From the NCBI RefSeq assembly GCF_030816965.1, contig NZ_JAUSYQ010000002.1, forward strand, positions 7,616,001-7,680,000: a stretch of DNA of 64,000 nt. The letters run 5' to 3'. The DNA comes from Streptomyces canus (GTDB lineage Bacteria > Actinomycetota > Actinomycetes > Streptomycetales > Streptomycetaceae). Shown here piece by piece: positions 3,162 to 63,007 of this stretch (its first letter is position 1; every line of letters begins with the position of its first letter). A program made the translations under genes and the position numbers. The notes beneath the pieces were generated by a model, which was not told the DNA's origin, did not search any database, and saw only the letters and a program-made list of their open reading frames with translations.

Positions 3162-4175
3162 TCACCCTGGCTGTGGGTTGACCGGGCCTGGCTCCAACAC
3201 CTCGCCGAGCCAGTCGAGTTGGCGCCGCACCTGCACCGCGTCGCCTCCCTCGTGGCCGTTGTACGGATAGGCGTGGATCTCCTTGCGAGGGTCCACACCG
3301 GTCAGCTCGCCGTAGCGGTTGAAGGCCGCGTACGCCCCGCTCGGCGGGCACACCGTGTCGCGCAGGCCGACCCCGAAGTGGGCCGGGGCGGCGGCGCGCC
3401 GTGCGAAGGAGACGCCCTCCATGTACGCGAGGGTGCGGTACGCGGCCTCCTGTGCGCCCCGGTGCACGGAGAGGTACGTGCTGATCTCGCCGTACGGGCT
3501 CGCGTCGGTCAGATCCAGGGCCCGTCGGATGCCGCACAGGAAAGGCGCGGTGACCAGGACCGCCGCCAGGTCCGGCACCAGTCCCGCGACGGCCAGCGCC
3601 AGCCCGCCGCCCTGGCTGTTGCCGACGGCCGCGACGCGGGACGCGTCCACTCCCGGAAGGGCGCGCACCGCGGCCACCGCGCGCACCGCGTCCGTGATCA
3701 GCCGCCGGTAGTGGTAGTCACGGGGGTCGAGCAGGCCGCGGGCCGCCGGTCCCGGGCCGCCCGGTGCCGAGGCGTGCGGGTCGGGGGTGGCCCCGCCGTT
3801 GCCGTACTGGTCACCCTGCCCGCGGTTGTCCATCAGCAGATGCGCGTACCCGGCGTTCACCCAGGTCAGCCGCTCGTGCGGCAGGCCGCGCCCGCGGCCG
3901 TAACCGGCGTACTCGACGACCGCCGGCAGGGGCTCGCCCACCCCGGCCGGTCTGCTGTACCAGGCGCGCACCGGATCGCCGGCGAAGCCCCGGAGGGTGA
4001 CGTCCCAGGTCTGCGTCAGCCGCAGCCCGCTCTCCGCCGGGCGCACCGACACCAACACATCCGTCTGCGCCGCCTCTTTGACGGTGTCACGCCAGAACCC
4101 GTCGAAGTCCGGGGGCTCCTGGACATCGGGACGGTACCGCTCCAGCTCCCTCGTCGGCAGGTCGAACGCAGGCAC
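3162..4175 (-). CDS. Acetyl xylan esterase / cephalosporin-C deacetylase family (337 aa)
   Basis: Carbohydrate esterase family 7-type alpha/beta hydrolase that removes acetyl groups from xylo-oligosaccharides. The triad is visible: nucleophile Ser187 in GNSQGG, Asp273 in GLRDTVCPP and His308 in YNGHEGG. The N-terminus has the family pattern PPDFDGFWRDTV, and the substrate-loop motif MDNRGQGDQYGNGG is present. No signal peptide is seen, so it should act inside the cell on imported oligosaccharides. The start is GTG at 4175 with GAGG seven bases upstream. It is divergent from the importer operon at 4379 and shares its palindrome-rich control region. Length is normal for the family. Confidence 0.88.
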   Translation of the reverse strand: MPAFDLPTRELERYRPDVQEPPDFDGFWRDTVKEAAQTDVLVSVRPAESGLRLTQTWDVTLRGFAGDPVRAWYSRPAGVGEPLPAVVEYAGYGRGRGLPHERLTWVNAGYAHLLMDNRGQGDQYGNGGATPDPHASAPGGPGPAARGLLDPRDYHYRRLITDAVRAVAAVRALPGVDASRVAAVGNSQGGGLALAVAGLVPDLAAVLVTAPFLCGIRRALDLTDASPYGEISTYLSVHRGAQEAAYRTLAYMEGVSFARRAAAPAHFGVGLRDTVCPPSGAYAAFNRYGELTGVDPRKEIHAYPYNGHEGGDAVQVRRQLDWLGEVLEPGPVNPQPG

Positions 4176-48214: not shown

Positions 48215-48330
48215 GCGGGAAGGTTAAAGGGAAGGGCGGCGTGGTGCCGCCCTAGACACCCGGACTTGGCTCCATGCCCACACAGACACCGCGCGCTCGG
48301 CACTCGTCGCACCGTGCGAGACTTTCCGAC

Positions 48331-49386
48331 GTGAGTGCACCTGAGACGCCGCCGTCAGCCACCTACGACTCCGCCTTCCTCAAGGCGTGTCGCCGGGAAC
48401 CCGTCCCGCATACCCCCGTGTGGTTCATGCGGCAGGCCGGGCGCTCGCTGCCGGAGTACCGCAAGGTCCGCGAGGGCATCCCGATGCTCGAGTCCTGCAT
48501 GCGGCCCGAGCTGGTCACCGAGATCACCCTCCAGCCGGTCCGCCGCCACAACGTGGACGCGGCGATCTACTACAGCGACATCGTCGTCCCGCTGAAGGCC
48601 ATCGGCGTCGACCTCGACATCAGGCCCGGCGTCGGCCCGGTCGTCGAGAACCCGATCCGCACCCGCGCCGACCTGGCTCAACTGCGCGACCTCACCCCCG
48701 AGGACGTCTCCTACGTCACCGAGGCCATCGGTCTGCTGACCCGCGAGCTCGGCCCGACCCCCCTCATCGGTTTCGCGGGCGCCCCTTTCACCCTCGCGAG
48801 TTACCTCGTCGAGGGCGGCCCGTCCCGCACGTACGAGAACGCCAAGGCGATGATGTACGGCGACCCCGAGCTGTGGGCGGACCTGCTCGACCGCCTCGCC
48901 GAGATCACCGCCGTCTTCCTGAAGGTCCAGATCGAGGCCGGCGCCTCCGCGGTCCAGCTCTTCGACTCGTGGGCCGGCGCCCTCGCCCCCGTCGACTACC
49001 GCCGCTCGGTCCTGCCCGCCTCCGCGAAGGTCTTCAAGGCGGTCGAGGGGTACGGCGTCCCCCGCATCCACTTCGGCGTCGGATGCGGCGAACTGCTGAA
49101 GCTCATGGGCGAGGCCGGCGCGGACGTCGTCGGCGTCGACTGGCGCGTCCCGCTCGACGAGGCCGCCCGCCGCGTCGGCCCCGGCAAGGCGCTCCAGGGC
49201 AACCTCGACCCGACGGTCCTGTTCGCCTCCACGGAGGCGGTCGAGGCCAAGACCCGCGAAGTCCTGGACTCGGCCGAGGGCCTGGAAGGCCATGTCTTCA
49301 ACCTCGGCCACGGCGTCATGCCGTCCACCGACCCGGACGCCCTGACCCGTCTCGTGGATTACGTCCACACGCACACCACCCGCTGA
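48331..49386 (+). CDS. hemE: Uroporphyrinogen decarboxylase (351 aa)
   Basis: Decarboxylates uroporphyrinogen III to coproporphyrinogen III in heme synthesis. The N-terminal motif [16 protein letters not shown] carries the substrate-binding Arg residues. [16 protein letters not shown] and [17 protein letters not shown] are diagnostic, and the active-site Asp is in the YSDI segment. The end [12 protein letters not shown] is conserved. I chose the GTG at 48331, which gives the usual family length; an ATG at 48274 adds 19 Arg/Ser-rich residues. The product feeds HemG and HemQ, encoded 4-6 kb downstream. Confidence 0.94.
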
Positions 49387-49387
49387 C

Positions 49388-50215
49388 TCACCAGGTGTGC
49401 CGGGGCCGCGCCTTCCTGCCGAACAGCAGGCCGCGCGGTTCCGGCGGCGGGGGAGTGCCCGGTTTGAGCGGCCAGGCCAGCAGCATCCCGACGAGGAAGC
49501 CCACGACGTGCGCCGCGTACGCCACCGTGCCGGCGGCGGAGACGCCCTCGCCGGAGGAGTACACCGCCTGCAGCACGAACCAGAAGCCCAGCACCAGCCA
49601 GGCCGGCAGTCTGAGCGGAAGGAAGACCAGGAAGGGCACCAGGACCCACACCCTGGCCTTCGGATACAGCACCAGATAGGCGCCCAGAACCCCGGCGATG
49701 GCCCCGGACGCACCGATCAGCGGGTCGCCCGAGTCGTCGTTGAGGAGCGCGAAGCCGTACGACGCCGCGTAGCCGCAGACGACGTAGAACAGCGCGAAGC
49801 GCACATGCCCCATACGGTCCTCGACGTTGTTGCCGAAGATCAGCAGGAACAGCATGTTACCCAGCAGGTGCAGCCAGCCGCCGTGCAGGAACATCGCCGT
49901 GAGGACCGACAGCGCGGGGGACTTGTCGTAGTCCGGCGGGGCCACCACACAGCCCGCCGAGCCCTGCGCGCTCGTGCCTACGTCGCCCGTGGGGACCAGC
50001 CGCGGCATCTGATGGTGGATCAACTCCTGTGGGACCGCCGCGTAGTGGTCCAGGAAAGCCTGGAGATGGCACAGCTGCGACAGGCTGCTGTCGCCCGCCA
50101 CGGAGCCGGCCAGGCCGGGCGTGAACAGGAACACGAGGACGTTCGCGGCGATGAGCGCGTACGTCACCACGGGGGTACGGCGCACAGGGTTCACGTCATG
50201 GACGGGGATGACCAC
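49388..50215 (-). CDS. Rhomboid intramembrane serine protease (275 aa)
   Basis: Cleaves membrane proteins within the bilayer. The catalytic Ser is in LIGASGAIAGVLGAYLV and the His in AYAAHVVGFLVGMLLA. The HGGWLHLLGNMLFLLIFG motif on the preceding helix is present. Six or seven spans are predicted. A large loop after span 1 (about 100 residues, with two cysteines) is typical of actinobacterial members. Start uncertain: GTG at 50215 is used; an ATG at 50299 would add 28 residues. The gene is convergent with hemE with one base between the stops. Confidence 0.87.
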   Translation of the reverse strand: MVIPVHDVNPVRRTPVVTYALIAANVLVFLFTPGLAGSVAGDSSLSQLCHLQAFLDHYAAVPQELIHHQMPRLVPTGDVGTSAQGSAGCVVAPPDYDKSPALSVLTAMFLHGGWLHLLGNMLFLLIFGNNVEDRMGHVRFALFYVVCGYAASYGFALLNDDSGDPLIGASGAIAGVLGAYLVLYPKARVWVLVPFLVFLPLRLPAWLVLGFWFVLQAVYSSGEGVSAAGTVAYAAHVVGFLVGMLLAWPLKPGTPPPPEPRGLLFGRKARPRHTW

Positions 50216-50351
50216 AAGGAAGTAGTGCCCGCGATGGGCCCCGCGAATCGGTGGCGCGTCGGTGAACACCCGCGCGCACGCGTGCGTATGTCTCCTCAAC
50301 CGCCCGCGGCACGGGGAAGGCGGGCCGCGGGGACTACGTGAGGAACCACCG

Positions 50352-50672
50352 ATGAACGACCGAATTGCTCCTCCGATGCACGCTCTTCCCGACGGTGAGG
50401 CCGAGATCTCCCTGGTGCTGCGGCTGCCGTGGGAGGACGTGGCCAGGCTCGGTCAGGAGGCCGGCCGGCTGGCCTCGCAGATGCAGCGGCCGGTGACGCT
50501 CGACGAGGCGGTGAGCAACCGGCTCAGGACCACGCGGCCCGCCTCGCACGCCAAGCCGGCGGGTGAGCAGCCGGCCGCGATGCCCGCCAGCGCCTCCATC
50601 TCCTCGCTGCCGCCCAGGCCGCCGGCCGACCAGGCCCGCCAGGCCATCGAACGCATCAACGGAACGGCGTAG
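50352..50672 (+). CDS. Conserved hypothetical protein (106 aa)
   Basis: Unrecognised. The N-terminal half is ordered (ISLVLRLPWEDVARLGQEAG, then RPVTLDEAVSNRL) and the C-terminal half is Pro/Ala/Ser-rich, ending in a short helix (DQARQAIERINGTA). The LRLPWEDVARL segment looks like a helix that could bind another protein. ATG at 50352 with AGGA eight bases upstream. It is divergent from the rhomboid gene and nearly abuts the convergent reductase gene. No membrane segment or signal. Confidence 0.6.
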   Translation: MNDRIAPPMHALPDGEAEISLVLRLPWEDVARLGQEAGRLASQMQRPVTLDEAVSNRLRTTRPASHAKPAGEQPAAMPASASISSLPPRPPADQARQAIERINGTA

Positions 50673-50675
50673 CCG

Positions 50676-52070
50676 TCAGGAGGCCCGCACCTTCGCGGCG
50701 GCCTTCCTGGCCGCCACCAGCACCGGATCCCACACCGGGCTGAACGGCGGCGCGTACCCCAGGTCCAGGGCCGTCATCTGCTCCACCGTCATCCCCGCCG
50801 TCAGGGCCACCGCGGCGATGTCGACCCTCTTGCCCGCGCCCTCTCTCCCGACGATCTGCACGCCGAGCAGCCGCCCCGTGCGGCGCTCGGCGAGCATCTT
50901 CACCGTCATGGGGGAGGCGCCCGGGTAGTAGCCGGCCCGGCTGGTGGACTCGATCGTGACCGACACGAACTGGAGGCCCACCCGACGCGCGTCCTTCTCG
51001 CGCAGGCCGCTCCGGGCGATCTCCAGGTCGCAGACCTTGCTGACGGCCGTGCCGACGACCCCGGGGAAGGTGGCGTAGCCGCCGCCGACGCCCGTGCCGA
51101 TGACCTGGCCGTGCTTGTTGGCGTGGGTGCCCAGCGCGATGTGCCGCTCCTGCCCCGAGACCAGGTCGAGGACCTCGACGCAGTCGCCGCCCGCCCAGAT
51201 GTTCTCGTGGCCGCGCACCCGCATCGCGAGGTCCGTCAGGAGACCGCCGTGGCTGCCCAGCGGCAGACCGGCCGCCTTCGCGAGCGTCGTCTCCGGGCGT
51301 ACGCCGATGCCGAGCACCACCACGTCCGCCGGGTACTCGGCGTTCTCCGTGGCCACCGCCCGCACCCGGCCGTCCTCGCCCGTGAGCACCTTGGTCACCG
51401 CGGCGTCGTCGACCATGGTGATGCCCAGACCCTCCATGGCCTCGTGCACCAGGCGGCCCATGTCCGGGTCGAGCGTGGACATGGGCTCGCTGCCCCGGTT
51501 GACCACCGTCACCTCGTACCCGCGGTTGATCAGCGCCTCGGCCATCTCCACACCGATGTACCCGGCGCCCACCACCACCGCCTTGCGGCCACGCGTGTGT
51601 GCCAGCGTGTCGATGAGCGCCTGGCCGTCGTCGAGCGTCTGCACCCCGTGCACACCGGGGGCGTCGACTCCCGGCATGTCGGGGCGGATCGGGCGGGCGC
51701 CGGTCGCGATCACGAGTTTGTCGTACGACGTCCAGGACTCGGCCCCCGACTCGAGGTCACGCGCGCGTACCCGCTGTCGGCCGACGTCGATCTCCATGAC
51801 CTCGGTGCGCATGCGCAGATCGATGTCACGGGCCCGGTGCTCCTCGGGCGTACGGGCGATCAACTGGTCCGGCTCGGTGACGTCCCCGCCCACCCAGTAC
51901 GGGATGCCGCAGGCCGAGTAGGAGGTGAAGTGGCCCCGCTCGAACGCCACGATCTCCAGTTCGTCGGGGCCCTTCAACCGGCGTGCCTGCGACGCCGCGG
52001 ACATCCCCGCGGCGTCGCCGCCGATGACGACCAGACGTTCCCTCGTGTCCCGCGTACGGCTCATGTTCAT
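50676..52070 (-). CDS. CoA-disulfide reductase-like FAD/NAD(P) oxidoreductase (464 aa)
   Basis: Pyridine-nucleotide disulfide reductase with two Rossmann motifs: VVIGGDAAGMSAASQARRL for FAD and VVVGAGYIGVEMAEALINRG for NAD(P)H. The single redox Cys lies in TSYSACGIPYWVGG, as in CoA-disulfide reductases and NADH oxidases. The C-terminal dimerisation domain begins near ATFPGVVGTAVSKV. Streptomyces use mycothiol rather than CoA as main thiol, so the true substrate is uncertain. ATG at 52070 with a second ATG two codons later; no clear ribosome site. Confidence 0.82.
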   Translation of the reverse strand: MNMSRTRDTRERLVVIGGDAAGMSAASQARRLKGPDELEIVAFERGHFTSYSACGIPYWVGGDVTEPDQLIARTPEEHRARDIDLRMRTEVMEIDVGRQRVRARDLESGAESWTSYDKLVIATGARPIRPDMPGVDAPGVHGVQTLDDGQALIDTLAHTRGRKAVVVGAGYIGVEMAEALINRGYEVTVVNRGSEPMSTLDPDMGRLVHEAMEGLGITMVDDAAVTKVLTGEDGRVRAVATENAEYPADVVVLGIGVRPETTLAKAAGLPLGSHGGLLTDLAMRVRGHENIWAGGDCVEVLDLVSGQERHIALGTHANKHGQVIGTGVGGGYATFPGVVGTAVSKVCDLEIARSGLREKDARRVGLQFVSVTIESTSRAGYYPGASPMTVKMLAERRTGRLLGVQIVGREGAGKRVDIAAVALTAGMTVEQMTALDLGYAPPFSPVWDPVLVAARKAAAKVRAS

Positions 52071-52097
52071 GCGAACACGCTACGAGGGCGCGGCATT

Positions 52098-53087
52098 TCA
52101 GTCCTGCTCGCCCCGCTCCTGCTCCCGCCCCGGATCCGGGACAGGGCGTGCCATGGGCAGCGGGCCCAGAGCGGTCGAGGCGGCCGCGGGCGCCGGCCGG
52201 CGCGGCAGCCGGGGCCGGATCAGCCGCAGCCACACCAGCACGATCAGCGCGACCGCCGCCAGGAACGGCAGTACCGCGGCCAGCGCCACCACGACCCAGC
52301 GCAGCATGGTCACGAACGCGTCCCAGCCGCCCGCGAGCGCGTCGACGACGCCGGGGTCGTCGTCCTTCTCGGTCTTGGCGACGGGCGACTCGGACAGGGA
52401 CAGGGTGATGGTGGCCAGGCTCGTGCGGTCCTTGAGGGACGCCTGGCGGGCGAGCAGTGACTCCAGGTCGGCCTGACGGGTGCTCAGTTCGCCCTCCAGG
52501 GTCACCACGTCGCTCAGCTTGGTCGCCTTGTCCATCAGCTCCCGGATCCGCGCCACACTCGCGCGCTGCGTCGCGATCCGGCTCTCCACGTCGACGACCT
52601 GGTCGGTGACGTCCTGCGCGTTCGCGGTGCGCTCCAGGAGCTTGCCCGCGCCCTCCAGGTCGGCGAGGACCTCGTCGTATTTCTCGACGGGCACCCGCAG
52701 CACCACCTCCGTCTGCTCCCGGCCCTCCTCGTCGCGGGAGGTGGACTCCTTGCCGACGAATCCGCCCGCGTTCTCGGTGGCGGTGCGGGCCGCGGCGAGC
52801 GCCTTCGGCACCTTCTTGACCTGCACGGTCAGCGTGGCGGTGCGGATGATGTGGTTCGCGGTGGGAGCGGGCGCCTGGGAGGCCTGTTTGCCGCCCGCGC
52901 CGTCGGCGTCGCCGGCCGCGCCCTCCGCCTGACTCTGCGCCGCCTTGTCGTCGGACAGGGCGCTGCCGCCGCTGTCGCTGCTGTCGGCGCCTGCGCTGCA
53001 CCCGGTCAGGGCGAGGCCCGCGGCGAGCAGGAGGCCGGCCAGGGCCCGCGCGGGCCGTACGGAACGTCGTGATCGTGATGTGTGCAT
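52098..53087 (-). CDS. DUF4349 lipoprotein (329 aa)
   Basis: Membrane-anchored protein of unknown function. The signal ALAGLLLAAGLALTGC ends in a lipobox. A Ser/Ala/Asp-rich linker leads to the DUF4349 domain, with IIRTATLTVQVKKVPKAL and QVVDVESRIATQRASVARI. A coiled coil of about 60 residues follows (KLSDVVTLEGELSTRQADLE). A C-terminal span (WVVVALAAVLPFLAAVALIV) is followed by an Arg/Pro-rich cytoplasmic tail. ATG at 53087 with GGGGGGAC upstream. Being anchored at both ends, it probably spans the cell-envelope face. Confidence 0.82.
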   Translation of the reverse strand: MHTSRSRRSVRPARALAGLLLAAGLALTGCSAGADSSDSGGSALSDDKAAQSQAEGAAGDADGAGGKQASQAPAPTANHIIRTATLTVQVKKVPKALAAARTATENAGGFVGKESTSRDEEGREQTEVVLRVPVEKYDEVLADLEGAGKLLERTANAQDVTDQVVDVESRIATQRASVARIRELMDKATKLSDVVTLEGELSTRQADLESLLARQASLKDRTSLATITLSLSESPVAKTEKDDDPGVVDALAGGWDAFVTMLRWVVVALAAVLPFLAAVALIVLVWLRLIRPRLPRRPAPAAASTALGPLPMARPVPDPGREQERGEQD

Positions 53088-53246
53088 GCGGGCGTCCCCC
53101 CGAGGGTCGTGAACAACTGACGCTCCTTCGACGCCGGAGCGGGTGCGAACGTTGGACTTCGGTGGTTCCGATGCGGTCACGGTCGGGACTCGTGAAGGAC
53201 ACCGGGCCGCCGTCGGACTGTCAGTGGGGTCTGAGAGGCTGGGGCC

Positions 53247-54686
53247 ATGAGCGGATCACGGGTCGTCGTCATCGGAGCCGGCATCGCGGGACTGGCCGCG
53301 GCGCACCGGCTGGCGCAGCGCGGTGCGCGCGTCACCGTGCTGGAGGCGTCCGACCGGGTCGGCGGCAAGCTGCTGCCCGGGGAGATCGCGGGTGCCCGCG
53401 TCGACCTCGGCGCCGAGTCGATGCTGGCCCGCAGGCCGGAGGCGGTGGCCCTGGCCCGCGAGGTGGGCCTCGACGACCGCCTCCAGCCGCCCGCCACCGC
53501 GACCGCCTCGATCTGGACCCGCGGCGCCCTGCGCCCCATGCCCAAGGGCCACGTCATGGGCGTTCCCGGCACCGCCGAGGCCCTGGCCGGCGTGCTGTCC
53601 GAGGAGGGCCTCGCCCGCATCGAGCAGGACGCCGAGCTGCCCCGCACGGAGGTCGGCGACGACGTGGCGGTCGGTGAGTACGTGGCGGCACGCCTGGGCC
53701 GCGAGGTCGTCGACCGCCTCATCGAACCCCTCCTCGGCGGGGTCTACGCGGGCGACGCGTACCGCATCTCGATGCGCTCGGCGGTCCCGCAGCTCTTCCA
53801 GGTCGCCCAGACCCACACCTCGCTCACCGAGGGCGTCCGCGAGATCCAGGCGAGGATGGCCGCAGGCCGGCAGACCGGGCCCGTGTTCATGGGTGTCCGC
53901 GGCGGCGTGGGCACCCTCCCGCTCGCCGTCGCCGACTCGGTCCGCGCGCGCGGCGGCGAGATCGTCACCGGCGCCCCGGTGACCGAGCTGCGCCGCGAGC
54001 CGTCCGGTGGCTGGAGGGTCGTGGCCGCGGACCGCGTCCTGCACGCCGACGCCGTGATCGTCGCCGCCCCCGCCGCGGCCGCCGCGGGCCTCCTGCGCGC
54101 CGAGGCCCCCGAGGCCGCCACCGAGCTCGACACCGTGGAGTACGCCTCCATGGCCCTGGTCACCCTCGCCTACCGCCGCTCCGACACCGCCCTGCCCGCG
54201 GGCAGCGGATTCCTGGTCCCGCCGGTCGACGGCCGCACCATCAAGGCGTCCACCTTCGCCTCCCAGAAGTGGGGCTGGATCGCCGACGAGAACCCGGACG
54301 TCGTCGTCCTGCGGACCTCCGTCGGCCGCTACGGCGAGACGAAGATCCTTGAGCGCGACGACACCGCCCTGGTGGACGTCTCCCGCCACGACCTGCGCGA
54401 GGCCACCGGGCTGGACGCCACCCCCCTCGACACCCGCGTCACCCGCTGGACCGACGGCCTGCCCCAGTACCCCGTCGGCCACCACGCGCGCGTGGCCCGC
54501 ATCCGCGAGCACGTCGCCAAGCTTCCCGGCCTCGCGGTGTGCGGCGCGCAGTACGACGGCGTCGGCATCCCGGCCTGCATCGCGAGCGCCTACGCGGCGG
54601 TGGACCAGATCCAGGGCGACCTGACCGCCGTACAGGAGCTCACCGCCAACCCGGTGCAGAGTCTGCACGGCGGAGCGGGAGAATAG
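53247..54686 (+). CDS. hemG: Coproporphyrinogen III / protoporphyrinogen oxidase, HemY type (479 aa)
   Basis: FAD enzyme of heme synthesis. The dinucleotide fold [21 protein letters not shown] opens the protein, and [20 protein letters not shown] and [19 protein letters not shown] are family motifs. In Gram-positive bacteria this type oxidises coproporphyrinogen III to coproporphyrin III (CgoX), and the next gene, hemQ, supports that role. It ends with [12 protein letters not shown], the conserved FAD-binding end. ATG at 53247 with GAGAGG upstream. The hemQ start is five bases after its stop. Confidence 0.92.
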
Positions 54687-54691
54687 GGCCC

Positions 54692-55423
54692 ATGAGCAAC
54701 GACGCCCCCACCCCCGAGTCCGGCAGGGTCCCGAACAAGGGCAAGCTGGCCAAGGACCTCAACGAGGTCATCCGTTACACGCTCTGGTCCGTCTTCAAGC
54801 TGAAGGACGTGCTCCCCGAGGACCGCACGGGGTACGCCGACGAGGTCCAGGAGCTGTTCGACCAGCTCGTCGCCAAGGACGTCACGATCCGCGGCACCTA
54901 CGACGTGTCCGGGCTGCGCGCCGACGCCGACGTCATGATCTGGTGGCACGCGGAGACCAGCGACCAGCTCCAGGAGGCGTACAACCTCTTCCGCCGCACC
55001 AGGCTGGGCCGCGCGCTGGAGCCGGTCTGGTCGAACATGGCGCTGCACCGCCCCGCCGAGTTCAACCGCTCACACATCCCGGCCTTCCTGGCGGACGAGA
55101 ACCCCCGCGACTACGTGAGCGTCTACCCGTTCGTGCGGTCGTACGACTGGTACCTCCTCCCCGACGAGGACCGCCGCCGCATGCTCGCCGACCACGGCAA
55201 GATGGCCCGCGGCTACCCGGACGTCCGCGCCAACACGGTCGCCTCCTTCTCCCTCGGCGACTACGAGTGGATCCTGGCGTTCGAGGCCGACGAGCTCTAC
55301 CGCATCGTCGACCTCATGCGCCACCTGCGCGCCTCGGAGGCGAGGATGCACGTCCGCGAGGAGGTCCCGTTCTACACGGGCCGCCGCAAGGAGATCGGTG
55401 AGCTGGTGGCGGGCCTCGCCTGA
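54692..55423 (+). CDS. hemQ: Coproheme decarboxylase HemQ/ChdC (243 aa)
   Basis: Chlorite-dismutase-family protein that converts coproheme III to heme b with hydrogen peroxide. [17 protein letters not shown] and [20 protein letters not shown] are conserved. The active-site Tyr is in [14 protein letters not shown], and the [19 protein letters not shown] segment contains the heme-ligand His region. The actinobacterial form ends at [14 protein letters not shown] at 54692, five bases after hemG, so the two form an operon. The stop touches the convergent hydrolase stop. Confidence 0.93.
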
Positions 55424-57058
55424 TCAGCGAGCGGGTCCGACGGCCGCCTTCCGAGAGCTGTCCTGCGTCTTCGTCTTCATCTTCGGCTTCGGCGTGGGCT
55501 CGGGGTGCGGGCCGCATGCGGCGCGCCGCACCGGGAGGCGGCCCTCCAGCAGGTAGGCGTCCAGGTATCCGTTGACGCACGGGTTCGGGCCGCCCGCGAT
55601 GCCGTGCGTGCCCGCGTCCCGCTCGGTCACCAGCACCGAGCCGGACAGCCGCCAGTGCAGTTCCAGGGCGCCGGCGTACGGAGCCGCCGCGTCCCTCTCG
55701 GCCGCGAGAATCAGCGTCGGCGGCAGCTCACCGGGCCCGGTCCGCACATCGAGGGCCCGCTGCCGCGGCGCGAGCCAGTACGCGCAGGGCAGGTTCATCC
55801 ACACGTTGTCCCACGTCTCGAACGGCGCCACCCGCGCCAGCCGGGTGTTGTCGCGGTCCCACACCTTCCAGTCCGTCGGCCAGGGCGCGTCGTTGCACTC
55901 GACGGCCGTGTAGACGGCGTTCGAGTTCTCCGCCTCCTCAGCCGCCTCCTGATGAGGCCCGGCCTGCTGGATCAGCGGCTTGGGGTCCCCCTTGAGATAC
56001 GCCGACAGGGCCTGCGCCCGATGCGGCCAGAAGTCGTCGTAGTACCCGGCCGTGAGGAACGCCCCCTGCAGCTCCCCGGGCCCGACCTTCCCCCCGGCCG
56101 GCTCGGCGGCCAGCCGCGCCGCCGCCTTCTCGTAGCTGCGCAGCACCTCCTCTGCCGTGTCCCCGAGCCCGTACACGTCGTCGTGCCCGGCGATCCACTC
56201 CCGGAAGTCCGCCCAGCGTTCCTCGAACGCGGCCGACTGATCCAGGTTGTTGCGGTACCAGACCTGCTCCGGGTCAGGGTTCACCGCCGCGTCGAAGACC
56301 ATCCGCCGTACGTGCGAGGGGAACAGCGTCGCGTACAGCGCGCCGAAGTAGGTCCCGTACGAGGCCCCCACGAACGTCAGCTTCCGCTCGCCCAGCGCGG
56401 CCCGCAGCACGTCCAGGTCCCGGGCGTTGTTCAGGGAGGTGTAGTACCGGAGAGCCACGCCCGCCCGTTTCGCACACCCGCGCGCGTACGCCTTCGCCTG
56501 CGCGATGCGTTCCTTCTTGTACGACAGCGAGGGGTACGTCGGTGTCTGCGTGGGCGCCTTGAGGTACTGCTTCGGGTCCGTGCAGGACAGCGGCGCCGAA
56601 CGGCCCACCCCGCGCGGTGCGTAGCCGACGAGGTCGTACGCCGCCGCGAGCCCCTTCCACTCGGGGAGCGCGCCGACCAGCGGGAAGTACATGCCGGAGG
56701 CGCCGGGGCCGCCGGGGTTGTAGACCAGGGCGCCCTGCCCGGGCACCCTGCGCTTGCTGTTGTGCGGGTCCTTGTGGGTGGCCCGCACCCGGCTGACGGT
56801 CAGCTTGATCTGTCGGCCGTCGGGGCGCGCGTAGTCGAGCGGGACGGACACCGTGCCGCACTCGACGCTGTCGGGCAGGTCCTCCGCCGCGGGGCAGGCG
56901 CCGAAGCGAACTCCGGCCGTCCCGGCGCGCGCGGCGGCGATCGCGGTGCCGTGGAGTTCCGCCGCGCCCGGGGCGGCCGGAGCGCCCCCGGCCGGTGCGG
57001 CGGCGAGCGTGGTCAGAAGCAATGACCCGGCGGCCGTGTAGAGGGCGGGGGCTCTCAT
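55424..57058 (-). CDS. Secreted alpha/beta-hydrolase peptidase, SlpD/TAP type (544 aa)
   Basis: Tripeptidyl-aminopeptidase-like enzyme. A signal peptide (ALYTAAGSLLLTTLAAAPAGG) precedes the catalytic domain. The nucleophile Ser is in FVGASYGTYFGALYA, the Asp in LAAERDAAAPYAGAL and the His in DAGTHGIAGGPN. The oxyanion region YNPGGPGASGM is present. A helical cap lies between the nucleophile and the C-terminal TAP-like domain (from about 430). ATG at 57058 with AAGGGA upstream. It likely trims peptides outside the cell. Confidence 0.88.
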   Translation of the reverse strand: MRAPALYTAAGSLLLTTLAAAPAGGAPAAPGAAELHGTAIAAARAGTAGVRFGACPAAEDLPDSVECGTVSVPLDYARPDGRQIKLTVSRVRATHKDPHNSKRRVPGQGALVYNPGGPGASGMYFPLVGALPEWKGLAAAYDLVGYAPRGVGRSAPLSCTDPKQYLKAPTQTPTYPSLSYKKERIAQAKAYARGCAKRAGVALRYYTSLNNARDLDVLRAALGERKLTFVGASYGTYFGALYATLFPSHVRRMVFDAAVNPDPEQVWYRNNLDQSAAFEERWADFREWIAGHDDVYGLGDTAEEVLRSYEKAAARLAAEPAGGKVGPGELQGAFLTAGYYDDFWPHRAQALSAYLKGDPKPLIQQAGPHQEAAEEAENSNAVYTAVECNDAPWPTDWKVWDRDNTRLARVAPFETWDNVWMNLPCAYWLAPRQRALDVRTGPGELPPTLILAAERDAAAPYAGALELHWRLSGSVLVTERDAGTHGIAGGPNPCVNGYLDAYLLEGRLPVRRAACGPHPEPTPKPKMKTKTQDSSRKAAVGPAR

Positions 57059-57174
57059 CGGTATCCCTTCGGTGCGCGGCAGCGACAAAAGGGATGGTTC
57101 GTTCGACTGTGGGGGAAGGCAAGCACCGCCCCGCCGGTGTCGGCCCCAATGCCTCCGTGCGCCCCCGGGTGAGC

Positions 57175-58017
57175 TCAGTCGCGCCCGTGCGGCCGACGGT
57201 GCTCCTCGCCGTGTCCGCCGGGCCGCTCTCCTCGCCACTCCTCACGAGGACGGCCGCGGTGCTGCTCACGGTGGGCGAAGGCCGCGCGCAGATCCGGTTC
57301 CCCGACCGCGCTGATGCCGCGTACGGCGACGGAGGTGAGATACGTCCGCTCGTCCGTGCCGCCGGTGCGCCGGGTCAGGGCGCCGAGCAGCCGCTGGCCG
57401 GCCGGGGACGCCCAGCGTGAGTACGGGTGGACCTCCATCCGTGCGATGGCCAGACAGCTCAGGGAGAGCGCGAGCGGCAGCGCGAACCAGAGGGCGACCA
57501 GATGCCGCGGCATCTCCGACGGTGCGGGTACAAGCAGCGCGATCGCGCCCAGCGCGACGACGGCCACCGAGGCCAGCCGTACCTGGCGGACCGCCGCCGC
57601 GATGCCGGACCGGGCACCGGCGGGCACCGCGAGGCCCGCGTCCACGAGCCGGTCGGCGATGCTGCGCACCGCGTCCGCCGCGGCCGCGTCGGCGCGCACC
57701 GGCGCGATCCGGGACTGCCCCTCAGGGCCGATGGCCCCGATGACCGTGCGCTCCATCTCGTCCCGCCCCCGCGGATCGACGACGGTCGCCCAGCCGGTGT
57801 GGGCCAGCAGCAGCCGTCGCTGCCGGGCCATGGAGACGAGCGTCAGATCGGCGACCCGCCGCGGGCCGCCCGACAGGAACGCGGCCTCGTACAGCGTCAG
57901 ATCGTGTCTCCGGGCATCCGCGTCGGCAGCCGCGGCGTGTACGGCGGCCAGGCACAGCCGCGTACACGCGGTGCCGGCGGCGGCCCAGGCCAGCAGCAGA
58001 AGAAGAACCCAGAACAT
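57175..58017 (-). CDS. TIGR04222-domain membrane protein (280 aa)
   Basis: Starts with a hydrophobic helix (WVLLLLLAWAAAGTACTRLC) and has two more spans at about residues 147-170 and 178-202. Between them lies the domain with LTLYEAAFLSGGPRRVADLTL and RRLLLAHTGWATVVD, which I recognise as TIGR04222. Proteins of this family are frequently encoded beside DUF692 genes, and one lies 1.2 kb away here. Many relatives carry a Gly/Cys-rich tail; this one has instead a His/Arg/Glu/Gly-rich tail (HREQHRGRPREEWRGERPGG) without Cys. Function unknown. Confidence 0.78.
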   Translation of the reverse strand: MFWVLLLLLAWAAAGTACTRLCLAAVHAAAADADARRHDLTLYEAAFLSGGPRRVADLTLVSMARQRRLLLAHTGWATVVDPRGRDEMERTVIGAIGPEGQSRIAPVRADAAAADAVRSIADRLVDAGLAVPAGARSGIAAAVRQVRLASVAVVALGAIALLVPAPSEMPRHLVALWFALPLALSLSCLAIARMEVHPYSRWASPAGQRLLGALTRRTGGTDERTYLTSVAVRGISAVGEPDLRAAFAHREQHRGRPREEWRGERPGGHGEEHRRPHGRD

Positions 58018-58117
58018 GCCGCGTTTCTATGCCAAAGGCTCCCGGCGGCGCCATGGGCTGTTCACGATCCGGACGGAGTGTTGTCGGTGTGTGACGTTCC
58101 GTTTGTCCGGAAGCGGA

Positions 58118-58906
58118 CTACGACGGGACGGGGACCGGGGGCGGGCTGGAGGCGGCCGGGGGCAGAGTGAAGGTCGTGGCGTACGGCGACGGGGTGACCG
58201 GAACGACCGCGCCCGGGTCGGTCGTCGGGCCGGGCGGAGCCGGGGAGTTGGTGATCGGTGGCGTGCTGCCGGTGGCCATGTCCCGGGCCAGGGCGCCGAA
58301 GTCGACGTACCCGGTGGCCTCCAGGATCTTGATGTGGTCCAGCACGGTGGTGTTGGCGTCGTCGGCCAGGGCGCGGACCAGGGAGTTCTGGGTGCTCGCG
58401 CGAACCTCTGCGACCACCGAGAACACCCTGCCGTGCGCGAGGCGCAGGATGTTGGCGAACTGGCGGTCGTAGTCGACGCCCTGGGCCTGGTTCAGAGTGT
58501 CGAGCCACTGCTTCTGCTGATCGCTGGGCTCGTTGGGCAGGGCGAGTCCGAGCTTCGACGCCACGTCACGCACGCGTGCGTCGAGGAACGTGTGCCCCTC
58601 GACCAGGTGCTGCCCCGCCGTCCGTACGGCCTGCGTCGTGCCCTTCTGCTCCGCCTGCTGGCCCGCGGGCAGCTCCCACAGCCCCGCTAGCCGCACCTTC
58701 GTGACGAACTCCCGGTCCAGTGCCGAGAGCGGCCCGTACGGCGTCGTCACGGTCCCGGCGTTGAGCACGCTCAGTCCCGTGCCGGAGCGGTCGGCATAGG
58801 ACCAGATCGGGATGAGCAAGGCCACGAGGGTCGCCGTCAGCCCGGCGATGATGACCCCGGTGCCGGAGAAGATGCCTCGCCCCTTGACGGGCGGTCGCGG
58901 TCGCAT
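58118..58906 (-). CDS. DUF4142 family exported protein (262 aa)
   Basis: An N-terminal signal anchor (GVIIAGLTATLVALLIPIW) is followed by a ferritin-like DUF4142 domain, with LSALDREFVTKVRLAGLWEL and HTFLDARVRDVASKLGLAL. The C-terminal 45 residues are Pro/Thr/Ser-rich, like a wall-spanning linker. ATG at 58906 with AGGAGG six bases upstream. It lies between the DUF692 and TIGR04222 genes on the same strand, 273 bp downstream of the former. Function is unknown; the His residues expected for metal are few. Confidence 0.8.
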   Translation of the reverse strand: MRPRPPVKGRGIFSGTGVIIAGLTATLVALLIPIWSYADRSGTGLSVLNAGTVTTPYGPLSALDREFVTKVRLAGLWELPAGQQAEQKGTTQAVRTAGQHLVEGHTFLDARVRDVASKLGLALPNEPSDQQKQWLDTLNQAQGVDYDRQFANILRLAHGRVFSVVAEVRASTQNSLVRALADDANTTVLDHIKILEATGYVDFGALARDMATGSTPPITNSPAPPGPTTDPGAVVPVTPSPYATTFTLPPAASSPPPVPVPS

Positions 58907-58953
58907 GGTGCCTCCTGTTGCGGCACCGCACGCTAGTGGGATTCAGGTGCGGG

Positions 58954-58984
58954 GTTGACATATTACTGCCGGGTCAATGTCAAC
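58954..58984. promoter_or_regulatory. Inverted repeat in the DUF4142 promoter region
   Basis: GTTGACAT (58954-58961) and ATGTCAAC (58977-58984) face each other over 15 bases. Each arm holds a TTGACA hexamer, one on each strand. It lies 48 bp before the DUF4142 start in an AT-richer patch, and may be a promoter with an overlapping operator. Confidence 0.4.
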
Positions 58985-59179
58985 TTCTGCACGGGGATGA
59001 ACCGTTGGAATCCGGTCAAAACGGGGTTAATAGGGGAGCGTGGGAAGGTCGGATTCGGGGAGGAACGGGGGCGAACCGTGAGTGTCGGGCAGAGTGCGTG
59101 GCCGTGGTGTTGACCCGGGCACATCGGCGTCAGCCGTCCGACCGCGGGCCGGTGGGCCGGGCCGGTCGCGCGGTTCGCG

Positions 59180-60484
59180 TCATCGCCTGAGCAACACCCT
59201 CCTGGTGGCCCGGGCGAACCGAACCCCCGGCCTCCGGGACCTGGGTACCGGTCCCGACCGCTCCAGCCACCACTCCCGCAACTCCCGTCGCACCCTCGCC
59301 TCCGCCAACTCCCCGCTCAGCAGCAGCTGTTCGGCGAAGCTCAGAGCGTCCCTCCGATACCCGTCCGTCATCGGCGCCCCCTGCGCATACGCCAGGAACG
59401 CCGGCCGATAGCCCGCTCCGAGGATCACCGGCAGTTCGGGTGCGACCTTCGCCACCACATCCGCCCGCTTTCCCGCGAGCGCCCGCGCCTGCACCCCCAG
59501 CCGTACCCGGTCGAACCCCTCCGGCACCGGAGTCCCCGCCACGAGTGCGGACAGCAGCGCGGTCTGGGCGAGGGCGAGCCGCTGGCGGGCGGGGTCGGTC
59601 GAGACGCTCGACGGCCCCACGGGGGCGCCGGCGCGCCACGCACCGTCGGCCCGTGCCCCGCCGCCCTTCTCCACCGCCTCCCGGATGGCCCCCAGCTCCC
59701 GCTCCAGTTCGCCCGGTTCGGGAAAGTTCTCGTCCCGCTCCAGCAGCACCCCCGGCGGCGAGATGCGGGACGCGAGGTCGGTGAGGATGTCGAGAACGGG
59801 CCGCGGCACCGGGTGGGCGTGGCTGTCGTGCCACACTCCGTCCCGCTCGAACCCGCCCGCGACATGGACGTACGCGATGGCCTCCAGAGGGAGCCCGGCG
59901 AGTGCCTCGGCCGGGACCTCGCCGCGGTTGACGTGGTTGGTGTGCAGGTTGGCCACGTCGATCAGCAGCCGTACCCCTGTCCGGTCCGCGAGGTCGTACA
60001 GGAACTGCCCCTCGGTCATCTCCTCGCCCGGCCACGAGAGCAGCGCGGCGATGTTCTCCACGGCGAGCGGCACCGGCAGCGCGTCCTGCGCGATACGGAT
60101 GTTCTCGCAGAGGACGTCCAGGGCGTCCCGGGTGCGCGGGACGGGCAGCAGGTGCCCGGCCTCCAGGCGGGGGGAGGCGGTCAGCGGACCGCCCGCGCGG
60201 ACGAACGCGATGTGCTCGGTGACCAGCGGCGAGCCCAGCGCCTCGGCCCGCTCGGCGAGAGCGAGGAGCCGCCCCTCGTCGGGTCGGTCGGCCCCGCCGA
60301 GGCCGAGCGAGACGCCGTGCGGGACCACGGTCACCCCGCGCTCGCGCAGCCGCCGCAGCGACTCGGGGAGGTGCCCGGGGCACAGGTTCTCGGCCACGAC
60401 CTCGACCCAGTCGATGCCCGGCATCCGCTCCACCGCGTCCGCGATCTCCGGCCGCCATCCGATCCCCGTCCCCAGTCGCTCCAT
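59180..60484 (-). CDS. DUF692/MNIO-family iron enzyme with C-terminal extension (434 aa)
   Basis: Multinuclear non-heme iron oxidase family; known members modify Cys or other residues in peptides together with a partner protein. The TIM-barrel ligand set looks intact: His56 ([10 protein letters not shown]), Glu90-His91 (TEHIAF), Glu143-Asn144 ([10 protein letters not shown]), Asp176, Asn179, His184 (DVANLHTNH), His207 (YVHVAGG), Asp220/His222/His224 (DSHAHPV) and Glu249 (LERDENFPE). About 150 extra residues follow ([38 protein letters not shown]), resembling the separate partner protein of other MNIO systems. ATG at 60484 with GAGGAGGGGAC upstream. No obvious precursor peptide is adjacent. 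Confidence 0.85.
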
Positions 60485-60634
60485 GGTCCGTCCCCTCCTC
60501 GGCCTCTCCCGCATCCGCTCCGGTCGCCGTCCGCTCGGCGTGACGGAGGTATGGCCCCGGGCCGCGGACCCGAACCGTGCCCGGGGGACCTTCAGAGCAA
60601 CATTTGAGGTTCGGCCCCGGCACAGCCGACGACG

Positions 60635-61267
60635 TCACGTGCCGCTTCGGGGCCACGCCCACGGCTCGCGGCCCGGCAGTCGCAGCGTCTCCTCCGCGAC
60701 CTTCAACGCGGGTACGGACCACTGCCGCCGGCTGGTTCCGAGCCACGCCCGCGGCTGGCGGCCCAGCAGTCGCAGTGTCGCCTCCAGCGGCCCGATCCCC
60801 TCCGCGACCTTGAGTGCGGGCGCGAACGCGAAGTCCGGCCCGCGGCCGGCCGGGTCCGTCGGAACGCGTCGGGCCACGGCCAGGGCCGCGGTGAGCACCT
60901 CGTCCGCCAGGTGGAGGCGCACACTCAGCGTGGCCGCCACGTCCCACGCGTGCACCACGTAGTCGACGAAGTGAAAGTCGATCGCCGTGCGGCCGCGAAA
61001 CCCTCCGCCCAGCTCCGGCAGCACGAACTCCCGCTCGAGAACGCCCGGTTCGGCGAACGCCCCGAGCACCGCGTCCGCAGCAGCCCGATGCGCACGGGCA
61101 GGCTCGCCCGTCCTCTCCTGCTCCCGCCAGTACCCCGGATCGCCGCCCACGCCTCGGGCCGCGGCCGCGAACCCGTGGTGCTGGGCGGTCATGTGCGCCA
61201 CCAGCCGCCGCAGGTCCCACCCCGCGCAGGGGGTGCCCCGCTCGACCCGTCCATCGACCCGGGTCAT
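60635..61267 (-). CDS. TIGR03086/MDMPI-like metal-binding protein, short N-terminus (210 aa)
   Basis: Member of the DinB/maleylpyruvate-isomerase-like superfamily. The conserved TPCAGWDLRRLVAHM and a metal-ligand His region FHFVDYVVHAWDVAATL are present. Relatives start about 25 residues earlier with a helix that is missing here, yet the ATG overlaps the upstream stop (ATGA) and looks genuine. The C-terminal end contains a partial tandem duplication: PALKVAEGIGPLEATLRLLG and PALKVAEETLRLPGREPWAW. Substrate unknown; some family members use mycothiol. Confidence 0.7.
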   Translation of the reverse strand: MTRVDGRVERGTPCAGWDLRRLVAHMTAQHHGFAAAARGVGGDPGYWREQERTGEPARAHRAAADAVLGAFAEPGVLEREFVLPELGGGFRGRTAIDFHFVDYVVHAWDVAATLSVRLHLADEVLTAALAVARRVPTDPAGRGPDFAFAPALKVAEGIGPLEATLRLLGRQPRAWLGTSRRQWSVPALKVAEETLRLPGREPWAWPRSGT

Positions 61268-61980
61268 CGCAGCGCCGGATGGTCCGCGACGACCGTGCAG
61301 GAGCCCGGCGCGATCTCGGTGAAACCGGCGTCACGGACCAACGGCAGCCCGCTGGCGGTGAGTTCACCCCACCGCCCGGGGTCCGCGGCCCGTACGGCGA
61401 GCGGGAACCCGGCGTCCCGCCAGGTGGCCCGCTCCTCGTCCGACAGTTCCCACCAGGCCAGTTGGGCGCCGTGACCGGCCTGAGCCATCGCCTTGCCGGC
61501 CGACATGTCGAGGTCCGGATTGAGCCACAGCACGGGAGCCGTCCCGTCCACGGCCGCCGGCGGTTCGGGATCGTCGAGATCGGTCCCGGACACCTGAAGC
61601 CTGGCCAACTCCTTGGGCCACCCGTCGAGCGGCACCGGCGGAAACACCCGTACCTCCGCCGACTTCCCCGTCACGGTGATCCCGGGCAACCCCTCGGCCC
61701 GCCGCCACTCGGCGCCCCGCGCCCGCCGTACGACCTTCCGGATCCGGGCGTCCTGCCAGTCCCGCACCACCTCGGCCCACTCTCCGTCGCCGACGGAACG
61801 CTCGTCGCCGAGCAGGACGAGAACGGCGCGGGCGGCGGTCTCGAGAGCGTCGGTGCGAGCAGGCGGAGCCGTCTTCTCGATACGGACGACCAGGGGCAGC
61901 ACGAACTGGGGTGCCTGGTCGCGTGCGGTCGGCTCGGAGCGGAAGGGGCTGTCGGTCAAGGGCGTCACGTCGTGGCTCAC
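61264..61980 (-). CDS. Peptidyl-tRNA hydrolase 2 (PTH2)-like protein (238 aa)
   Basis: The C-terminal part has the PTH2 signature MSAGKAMAQAGHGAQLAWW, with the Lys and His region used for tRNA binding and catalysis in archaeal and eukaryotic Pth2. The end RDAGFTEIAPGSCTVVAD also fits. The N-terminal 100 residues are less conserved (FVLPLVVRIEKTAPPARTDA) and are an actinobacterial addition. Whether it hydrolyses peptidyl-tRNA is unproven. GTG at 61980. It is coupled to the following gene by ATGA. A 59-residue Cys-rich gene lies 16 bp upstream. Confidence 0.78.
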   Translation of the reverse strand: MSHDVTPLTDSPFRSEPTARDQAPQFVLPLVVRIEKTAPPARTDALETAARAVLVLLGDERSVGDGEWAEVVRDWQDARIRKVVRRARGAEWRRAEGLPGITVTGKSAEVRVFPPVPLDGWPKELARLQVSGTDLDDPEPPAAVDGTAPVLWLNPDLDMSAGKAMAQAGHGAQLAWWELSDEERATWRDAGFPLAVRAADPGRWGELTASGLPLVRDAGFTEIAPGSCTVVADHPALR

Positions 61981-61996
61981 CCGGACAACCCTAAGG

Positions 61997-62176
61997 TCAC
62001 CCGGAGCAGGCCGTGCGCTGAGCCTCCTGCCACTCGCAGACCGGGCACAGGGTGATCCCCTTGTACGACTCCGGATACTCCGTCGGATTCCGGCACAGCA
62101 CGCACTCCGCGTACGGCGGTCCGTCGGCGACCGGAGGCTTCGGCACGTTGCCGATGGTGCAGTGGTCCTCGCTCAT
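61997..62176 (-). CDS. Small Cys-rich, zinc-ribbon-like protein (59 aa)
   Basis: Reading from the ATG at 62176: MSEDHCTIGNVPKPPVADGP then PYAECVLCRNPTEYPESYKG then ITLCPVCEWQEAQRTACSG. Two CxxC knuckles (ECVLC and LCPVC), 17 residues apart, form a plausible zinc ribbon. GGAG is close to the start. It lies between the deacetylase gene (9 bp upstream) and the PTH2-like gene (16 bp downstream) in one tight unit. Function unknown; a nucleic-acid or protein contact is typical for such ribbons. Confidence 0.72.
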   Translation of the reverse strand: MSEDHCTIGNVPKPPVADGPPYAECVLCRNPTEYPESYKGITLCPVCEWQEAQRTACSG

Positions 62177-62185
62177 ATCTCCAGC

Positions 62186-63007
62186 CTAGGACCCGATCAA
62201 CTCGGACACCTTCACGAACCGGAACCCCCGCTCACGCAGCTCCGGCACCACCGCCCGCACCACCCGCTCCGTCGTCGGCGCGGCACTGCGCGTGCAGTGC
62301 ATGACGACGACCGACCCCGGCCGCACCCCGTCCAGCACCTGTCGGGTCACAGCCTCCGCGTCCGTCGCGAACGCGTCCCCGCTCACCACATCCCACTGGA
62401 CGGCGGTCACGCCGACCGGGGCCAGCGCCTTCAGCGCCCGCCGGTCGTAGCACCCGCCGGGAAAACGGAAGTACGGCCTCGCGTCCGGCACCCCCGCCCT
62501 CCCGAACGCCGCGTACGCCCGCTCCACATCCGCCCGCATCCGGTCACCGGAGACCCTCGGCAGCCCGTAACAGTCGTCGGTGAAGGCGTAGTGGCTGTAG
62601 GAGTGGTTGGCGACCTCGAAGAGCGGGTCCCGCCCGATGGAGCGTGCCTGCTCCGGATACTGCTCGGCCCACCGCCCGGTCATGAACACGGTGGCCGGCA
62701 CCTTCAGTGCCCGCAGGGCCGCGATCAGCCCCGGGTTGTCGAAGTGCTCGCCGGCTGCCGCCCGCGTCCCCTGGTCCGCCGTCATGTCGGCGTCGAAGGT
62801 GAGCGCGACGGTCCTGCCGTGCCTGCGCGACCCGTTCTTGAAGACGGGGGTCAGTCCGCCGGGCCCGGGGGCGAGAGTGGGGGGCGCGGAAGGAGCCGTA
62901 GGGGCCGCGGAAGATGCCGGGCGGACGGGTTGCGGCGTGGCCGCGCAGGCGGTGAGGGCGGCGCTGAGGGCACAGGCGGCGGTGACTCGTCGTACAAGAG
63001 TGATCAC
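62186..63007 (-). CDS. Polysaccharide deacetylase (NodB-fold) lipoprotein (273 aa)
   Basis: Exported NodB-homology enzyme expected to deacetylate cell-wall or other glycans. The signal ends with a lipobox-like LTAC. After a Pro/Ala/Ser linker, the motifs are VALTFDADMTADQG (catalytic Asp pair), ANHSYSHYAF (metal His-x3-His), RFPGGCYDRRALKAL and VVMHCTRSAAPTTERVV (final His). GTG at 63007, with ATACG before it and no clear ribosome site. An operon with the small Cys-rich protein and the PTH2-like gene is likely by spacing. Confidence 0.87.
   Translation of the reverse strand: MITLVRRVTAACALSAALTACAATPQPVRPASSAAPTAPSAPPTLAPGPGGLTPVFKNGSRRHGRTVALTFDADMTADQGTRAAAGEHFDNPGLIAALRALKVPATVFMTGRWAEQYPEQARSIGRDPLFEVANHSYSHYAFTDDCYGLPRVSGDRMRADVERAYAAFGRAGVPDARPYFRFPGGCYDRRALKALAPVGVTAVQWDVVSGDAFATDAEAVTRQVLDGVRPGSVVVMHCTRSAAPTTERVVRAVVPELRERGFRFVKVSELIGS

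Follow-up and report, generated by a model that had tools for sequence, protein, structure and literature searches.

What does an enzyme of the MNIO (DUF692) family act on when the gene that would point to its substrate is no longer beside it? MNIO substrates have been found almost entirely via neighbouring genes, and at the locus described here either that neighbour is missing or the paralog found there is the wrong one. The locus lies in a stretch of 64,000 nucleotides from Streptomyces canus (assembly GCF_030816965.1, contig NZ_JAUSYQ010000002.1, positions 7,616,001 to 7,680,000), hereafter called the window, whose own numbering is used throughout; L and G numbers are our handles for loci and genomes. 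It holds an MNIO gene with a fused partner-like domain, accompanied on the same strand by genes for a DUF4142 protein and for a TIGR04222 membrane protein that lacks the cysteine-bearing tail found in other Streptomyces. Judging from the comparison of these loci, the MNIO probably works on targets encoded elsewhere in the genome.

A conserved MNIO with a fused partner-like domain

The MNIO fusion gene (59180-60484, minus strand) encodes a protein of 434 aa that scores 253.3 bits against PF05114, the MbnB/TglH/ChrH family, whose profile cut-off is 25. Its catalytic domain covers residues 1-278 (59651..60484, minus strand), and the predicted model has the MbnB/TglH TIM-barrel fold in a fold comparison whose matches listed cover residues 1-280 only. 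The iron ligands of TglH are, in the part of PMC10880893 available to us, H71, H107, E151, D184, N187, H216, D229, H231 and E258; sequence alignment places H56, H91, E143, D176, N179, H207, D220, H222 and E249 of the window protein at these nine positions, and the residues are invariant in all 116 MNIOs of our alignment, from which L042 was dropped as misparsed. Family profile, fold and ligand positions agree, so the sequence-only reading was right to call this protein an MNIO with its ligand residues in place. The list it gave stands for His56, His91, Glu143, Asp176, His207, Asp220, His222 and Glu249 and overlooked Asn179, whereas Glu90, His184 and His224 have to be struck from it: the TglH residue aligned with Glu90 is Asn, relatives have Arg, Gln or Ala in place of His184, and Asp replaces His224 in two of seven outgroup rows.

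Of 121 Streptomyces genomes sampled, 114 gave an MNIO match, which bears out the earlier description of the gene as chromosomally conserved. Of 396 genomes drawn across the phylum 21 have one, ten of these being Streptomyces besides the window's genome. The window's assembly contains a single PF05114 gene, and the closest named relatives of its product are Streptomyces canus proteins at 97% identity (precomputed annotation).

The C-terminal partner-like domain that had been noticed in the bare sequence is also real: the last ~150 residues (59180..59650, minus strand) correspond, by precomputed annotation of relatives, to PF26136, which one source names the SCO6045-like C-terminal domain, and are all-helical in the predicted model, with helices at residues 297-432. 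PF26136 has an overlapping gene to itself in L009, L010 and L012, from other genera, and in some Streptomyces (L018, L019, L104, L122), which supports a partner role; such a domain would bind the client. The partners in clusters of the TIGR04222 type are helical PME-type 2 proteins that are short, at 115-276 residues, according to the available sections of Antoine et al. 2025 (PMC12452194). Three of eight PF26136 domains match DUF2063 weakly (best E 9.8e-4; the window's own domain is unmatched), and the family may be distantly DUF2063-like. No relative of solved structure (PDB) was found for the domain by sequence, the best hit being an unrelated chain at E 0.057.

A Cys-tailed neighbour in other Streptomyces and its loss

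Loci were retrieved for most of the genus matches, leaving out partial ones and those cut by a contig end, and a TIGR04222 profile was built from trimmed matches. Fifty-eight loci fall outside the clade to which the window's MNIO belongs, 50 of them with a complete downstream flank (termed intact). In 48 of these 50 the gene directly after the MNIO encodes a TIGR04222 protein with a Cys-bearing Gly/Ser tail, 46 being called by script and L063 and L122 by inspection; the parse corrections from merging of open reading frames (ORFs) gave the latter two a Cys-tailed gene and removed one from L182. The remaining two are L068, whose short tail has one Cys, and L044, which has no such gene. We provisionally read the Gly/Cys runs seen in L061 and L062 as the leucine-rich start of TIGR04222 in a different frame. 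The tails carry 3-11 Cys (53 outside copies scored), the proteins have three or four hydrophobic segments (seven examples), and the stop codon of the MNIO-partner unit lies a median of -3 bp from the nearest start of the Cys-tailed gene, that is, the two overlap (44 loci). Outside the genus, a clear MNIO is present at six loci (L008-L013), and at each of them a TIGR04222-like protein with Cys in its Gly-rich tail is encoded upstream, one Cys only in L008. We infer that the ancestral client of the MNIO was the Gly/Ser/Cys-rich tail of the adjoining TIGR04222 membrane protein.

The window's MNIO belongs to a clade of 51 rows (FastTree 97; IQ-TREE quick SH-aLRT 98.2) in which this neighbour is missing from 46 of the 47 loci with complete flanks, only L032, a basal member, having kept it. 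An independently found set of 80 named Streptomyces loci, 67 with complete flanks, which may overlap the main set, gave a Cys-tailed copy only in L252 (S. himalayensis). L032 and L252 have the order MNIO, Cys-tailed TIGR04222, DUF4142, tail-less TIGR04222; the window's order therefore reads as the same series minus one gene, i.e. as a loss. Three state changes are required on the tree, with 14 uncertain rows left out. S. coelicolor probably belongs to the clade as well, given that two locus numbers separate SCO6042 (chlorite dismutase) from SCO6045, the gene that we take to be its MNIO from a Pfam name and the record name of one relative.

An upstream element common to the MNIO and an unlinked gene

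A 21-bp element, AACCTCAAATGTTGCTCTGAA, lies at 60591..60611 on the minus strand and begins 127 bp ahead of the MNIO start codon. Its general form is AACCTCAAAT-N4-CTCTGAA, at about 90-150 bp before the MNIO, and it occurs upstream of the enzyme with at most five substitutions in 103 of 109 Streptomyces loci and in none of seven outgroup loci; within the clade 49 of 51 loci have it with at most two. The element is rare in the genome at large. The window's genome has one site only within 3 mismatches, and a second, G000:C2:8006118-8006138, when the 4-base core is left free. With one mismatch allowed, it was present in 38 of 40 genomes and the reversed pattern in none. Seventeen of 18 genomes outside the clade have exactly one site, before the MNIO, and one has none, while 12 of 22 clade genomes, the window's included, have an additional site beside gcl; G108 and G067 have one site elsewhere each. 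The one in G108 (L270, ~4001-4021, minus strand) is a third copy with one mismatch, ~110 bp before a lipoprotein-like ORF of 186 aa.

The gcl-side sites lead to a second gene. A small TIGR04222-like gene, encoding 191-247 aa with a Gly-rich tail and no clear transmembrane segments, is found in 17 of the 51 clade genomes, adjoined by gcl in 16 of them and preceded by the element within 260 bp in 13. It was detected in none of the seven Streptomyces genomes that lack an MNIO match, and in none of 22 other Streptomyces at E < 1e-50, where only remote matches appeared (best E 1.4e-19). Ten of the proteins, when aligned, contain 0 to 6 Cys in all. In nine clade genomes, again including the window's, the gcl-side element is present and the small gene is not. 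Both the Cys-tailed and the small TIGR04222-like gene are missing from the window's genome, which has kept the MNIO; in its ancestry, one client of the TIGR04222 type after another thus appears to have disappeared.

A strongly conserved stem-loop lies downstream of the gcl-side element (L260, ~3905-3940, minus strand, in the window's genome), with 12 pairs, three of which are kept through two-sided changes in 16 aligned leaders; it is retained in eight of the nine genomes that lost the small ORF, and could function as a small RNA or as a leader. Rfam gave zero matches up to E 1 in the window's positions 57000-62200 and in L260, the gcl region of the same genome, and a scan for sigma-70 promoters and terminators found nothing.

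The sites would be acted on by a common regulator. SCO6045 was 3.01-fold up two hours after H2O2 in S. coelicolor (PMC4991794, Table 1), and its H2O2 set, as far as the accessible part of that paper describes it, comprises mostly sulfate-to-cysteine genes, deregulated in the hbpS-senS-senR mutant. We rejected the element as a SenR site, the published consensus CGGGCCGCGTCCCG being dissimilar.

Unlinked clients or an incidental link

On balance, we favour the view that the MNIO was kept when its client gene was deleted and now acts on one or more unlinked clients. Ancestrally, a genus-wide MNIO with its partner fused would have had the adjoining Gly/Ser/Cys TIGR04222 tail as client; in the clade the Cys-tailed gene would have been deleted while enzyme, ligands and upstream element were kept, and the enzyme would then act on clients encoded elsewhere. 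The best visible candidate is the gcl-side small TIGR04222-like protein, with its Gly-rich tail and the same upstream element, and the modification would fall on tail residues, on Cys where present. Because the small gene is also gone from the window's genome, the MNIO there would either have a further unlinked client or be a very recent orphan.

Several points weigh against this proposal. The small gene is present in one third of the clade only, the element is missing in four of its 17 copies, and some of the tails are free of Cys. L044, outside the clade, lost its Cys-tailed gene independently and kept the MNIO. Cys-tailed TIGR04222 proteins of other subtypes occur without an adjoining MNIO in L157, L158 and L259. 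Seven of the 121 Streptomyces genomes have no MNIO match, so the enzyme is not essential. The clade-specific residues near the ligands (V142, F212, N253), which we considered as a cause of the loss and rejected, also occur in L032, which has the Cys-tailed gene; they are therefore no marker of it. Finally, what the comparison shows is gene content, gene loss, selection, the shared element and the match in fold; client and modification are predictions. As to the proteins of L157, L158 and L259, each has three Cys in a Gly-rich tail, and no MNIO was matched in the draft genome to which L259 belongs.

More tentatively, the MNIO might be a stand-alone protein modifier acting in trans throughout a large clade (S. 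coelicolor probably included), with clients tied to it by the element instead of by clustering and a client other than TIGR04222 in the window's genome. If action in trans on a protein is true, the system would count as one of protein modification rather than as a cluster for ribosomally synthesized and post-translationally modified peptides (RiPPs); if its clients are tied by the element, they would be invisible to gene-neighbourhood mining. The clade comparison serves as a natural experiment that asks if the MNIO has clients other than TIGR04222 tails, and a compact element together with a client-like gene elsewhere makes the question testable in ordinary Streptomyces.

The alternative that survives best, unlikely as we consider it, is that the TIGR04222 link is incidental in the clade and that the MNIO modifies an unlinked substrate of a different kind, such as a short peptide or some abundant protein, and owes its genus-wide conservation to this. 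Four clade genomes (G045, G107, G110 and G013) fit this well, having an intact MNIO locus and zero TIGR04222 matches anywhere in the genome (G032 has zero matches too, with its locus cut by a contig end), as do L097, L044, L206 and L247, where the MNIO is adjoined by neither TIGR04222 nor DUF4142, and the window's genome, where the Cys-tailed and the small gene are both absent. An incidental link sits poorly, however, with a rare upstream element that is common to the MNIO and the small TIGR04222-like gene, and with the operon structure that ties the MNIO to the Cys-tailed TIGR04222. Between a peptide and a protein, the latter is the likelier client. In agreement with the sequence-only reading, which had seen no small precursor nearby, inspection of the two intergenic stretches that flank the MNIO brought out none in 15 aligned clade loci.

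Adjoining genes that look like bystanders

The DUF4142 gene (58118..58906, minus strand; PF13628, 79.6 bits against a cut-off of 27) encodes a protein with one N-terminal hydrophobic segment, residues 16-34, and the TIGR04222 gene (57175..58017, minus strand; 154.4 bits against 43) a membrane protein of 280 aa with three hydrophobic segments. The sequence-only reading had noted both on the same strand as the MNIO, which is correct, and had looked to their conserved co-occurrence across Streptomyces, which did not emerge from our survey: the tail-less TIGR04222 gene accompanies the MNIO in 42 of 47 intact clade loci versus 29 of 50 outside by script, a count that is too high since at least L068 and L122 are truncated or misparsed Cys-tailed copies, and a downstream DUF4142 gene is present in 32 of 47 versus 4 of 50.

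That one of these two proteins is the substrate, as had been suggested, is therefore very improbable on linkage and tail evidence. Adjacency on the same strand and the 42 of 47 clade loci speak for the product of 57175. Yet there are loci with the MNIO and no tail-less paralog, and genomes with the paralog and no MNIO match: TIGR04222 is missing from that place in five of the 47 loci, L206 and L247 have the MNIO with neither neighbour, and G047 and G105 have the tail-less gene and no MNIO match. The 40 residues following the TIGR04222 domain of the 57175 product are free of Cys, and it falls outside the Gly/Ser/Cys-tailed subset, none of the 43 tail-less copies in the clade has a Cys-bearing tail, no second element copy appears among the best two matches per locus (at most five substitutions), and the tail-less paralog also follows the Cys-tailed one outside the clade. 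Upstream of DUF4142, at 58906-59020, many of the 15 aligned clade loci share another conserved stretch, GTAATATG ... GCGTGCGGTGCCG, which suggests that DUF4142 has a promoter of its own; DUF4142 was rejected as substrate on this conserved region and on its low linkage outside the clade. A third candidate, the protein resembling peptidyl-tRNA hydrolase 2 (PTH2) encoded upstream, is not favoured, being present in four of the seven MNIO-less genomes. The tail-less TIGR04222 and DUF4142 proteins thus look like bystanders.

Selection on the enzyme

The median ratio of non-synonymous to synonymous substitution rates (dN/dS) in the catalytic domain is 0.169 over 993 pairs within the clade and 0.259 over 601 pairs outside it, dS being rough in such GC-rich genes, and the clade has the lower value in all three dS bins. 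The MNIO is under purifying selection after the loss of its neighbour. The partner domain evolves ~3x faster than the catalytic domain in the clade and 2.4x faster outside, which at most hints that client binding is relaxed. Decay of the MNIO after client loss would fit the missing Cys-tailed gene and this faster partner domain, and is the least credible of the alternatives in view of ligands that all 51 clade members retain, a catalytic-domain dN/dS no higher than outside in every bin, and an element within two substitutions in all but two of the 51 loci.

Surroundings of the locus

Upstream of the MNIO, the minus strand carries a TIGR03086 / mycothiol maleylpyruvate isomerase-like gene (60635..61267, profile match), found there in five of 47 intact clade loci and in none of 50 intact loci outside, and the gene for the PTH2-like protein (61264..61980; PF01981), of 238 aa with one Cys, which in size and Cys count fits the published adjamnio-II type. 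On the other side lie a TAP-like hydrolase (ORF 55424-57238, minus strand), a hemQ-like / chlorite dismutase gene (54689-55423, plus strand; PF06778), hemY (53247-54686, plus strand) and, farther off, hemE (48274-49386), the last two being named from reading of the translations and from S. coelicolor names. The surroundings at 48274-55423 are thus those of heme synthesis (hemE, protoporphyrinogen oxidase, chlorite dismutase/HemQ), and hemE-like genes adjoin the tail-less TIGR04222 in two MNIO-less genomes. In S. coelicolor the SCO6040-SCO6041 region is bound by OsdR, according to the part of PMC5069765 available to us.

Comparison with known systems

TIGR04222 proteins have already been predicted as MNIO substrates, in the order peptidyl-tRNA hydrolase - MNIO - TIGR04222 (Antoine et al. 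2025, PMC12452194, available sections). An MNIO with a membrane-protein substrate, which the sequence-only reading had held to be new, is accordingly in print as a prediction. The clade-wide loss, the upstream element and the unlinked small gene do not appear in those sections or in the literature searched, and searches on MNIO with Streptomyces coelicolor, and on DUF692 with Streptomyces or TIGR04222, found nothing on this locus.

The clusters described there resemble the window in having, in Actinomycetota, an MNIO beside TIGR04222 membrane proteins, together with partner-like proteins, of PME-type 2 in those clusters; in the window MNIO, the putative partner is fused. The peptidyl-tRNA hydrolases of adjamnio-II have 233-256 aa and one Cys; the PTH2-like protein encoded on the same strand in the window has 238 aa and one Cys, with PF01981 as its Pfam hit in place of PF01195. 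In the window a TIGR03086 gene stands between PTH and MNIO, and a DUF4142 gene between MNIO and TIGR04222. The same sections describe MovX, which, like the window MNIO, combines the catalytic function with a putative partner function in a single chain; it belongs to methanobactin-like clusters of Vibrio and its extra domain is by description a winged helix.

Compared with TglHI and MbnBC, as far as accessible descriptions go, the window has its partner as a fused PF26136 domain and Val58 aligned with Asn73 of TglH, and no small precursor gene is seen adjoining. BufB (172.6 bits) and HvfB (138.4 bits) are the best NCBIfam relatives by score, far under their cut-offs of 310 and 360, and ApyH (113.4 against 400), ChrH (36.5 against 600) and MbnB (27.7 against 325) are also below theirs; the scan of neighbours in the window named neither DUF2282 nor any other bufferin gene. 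Set beside these systems, the conserved MNIO of the window is new in its situation, not in its kind.

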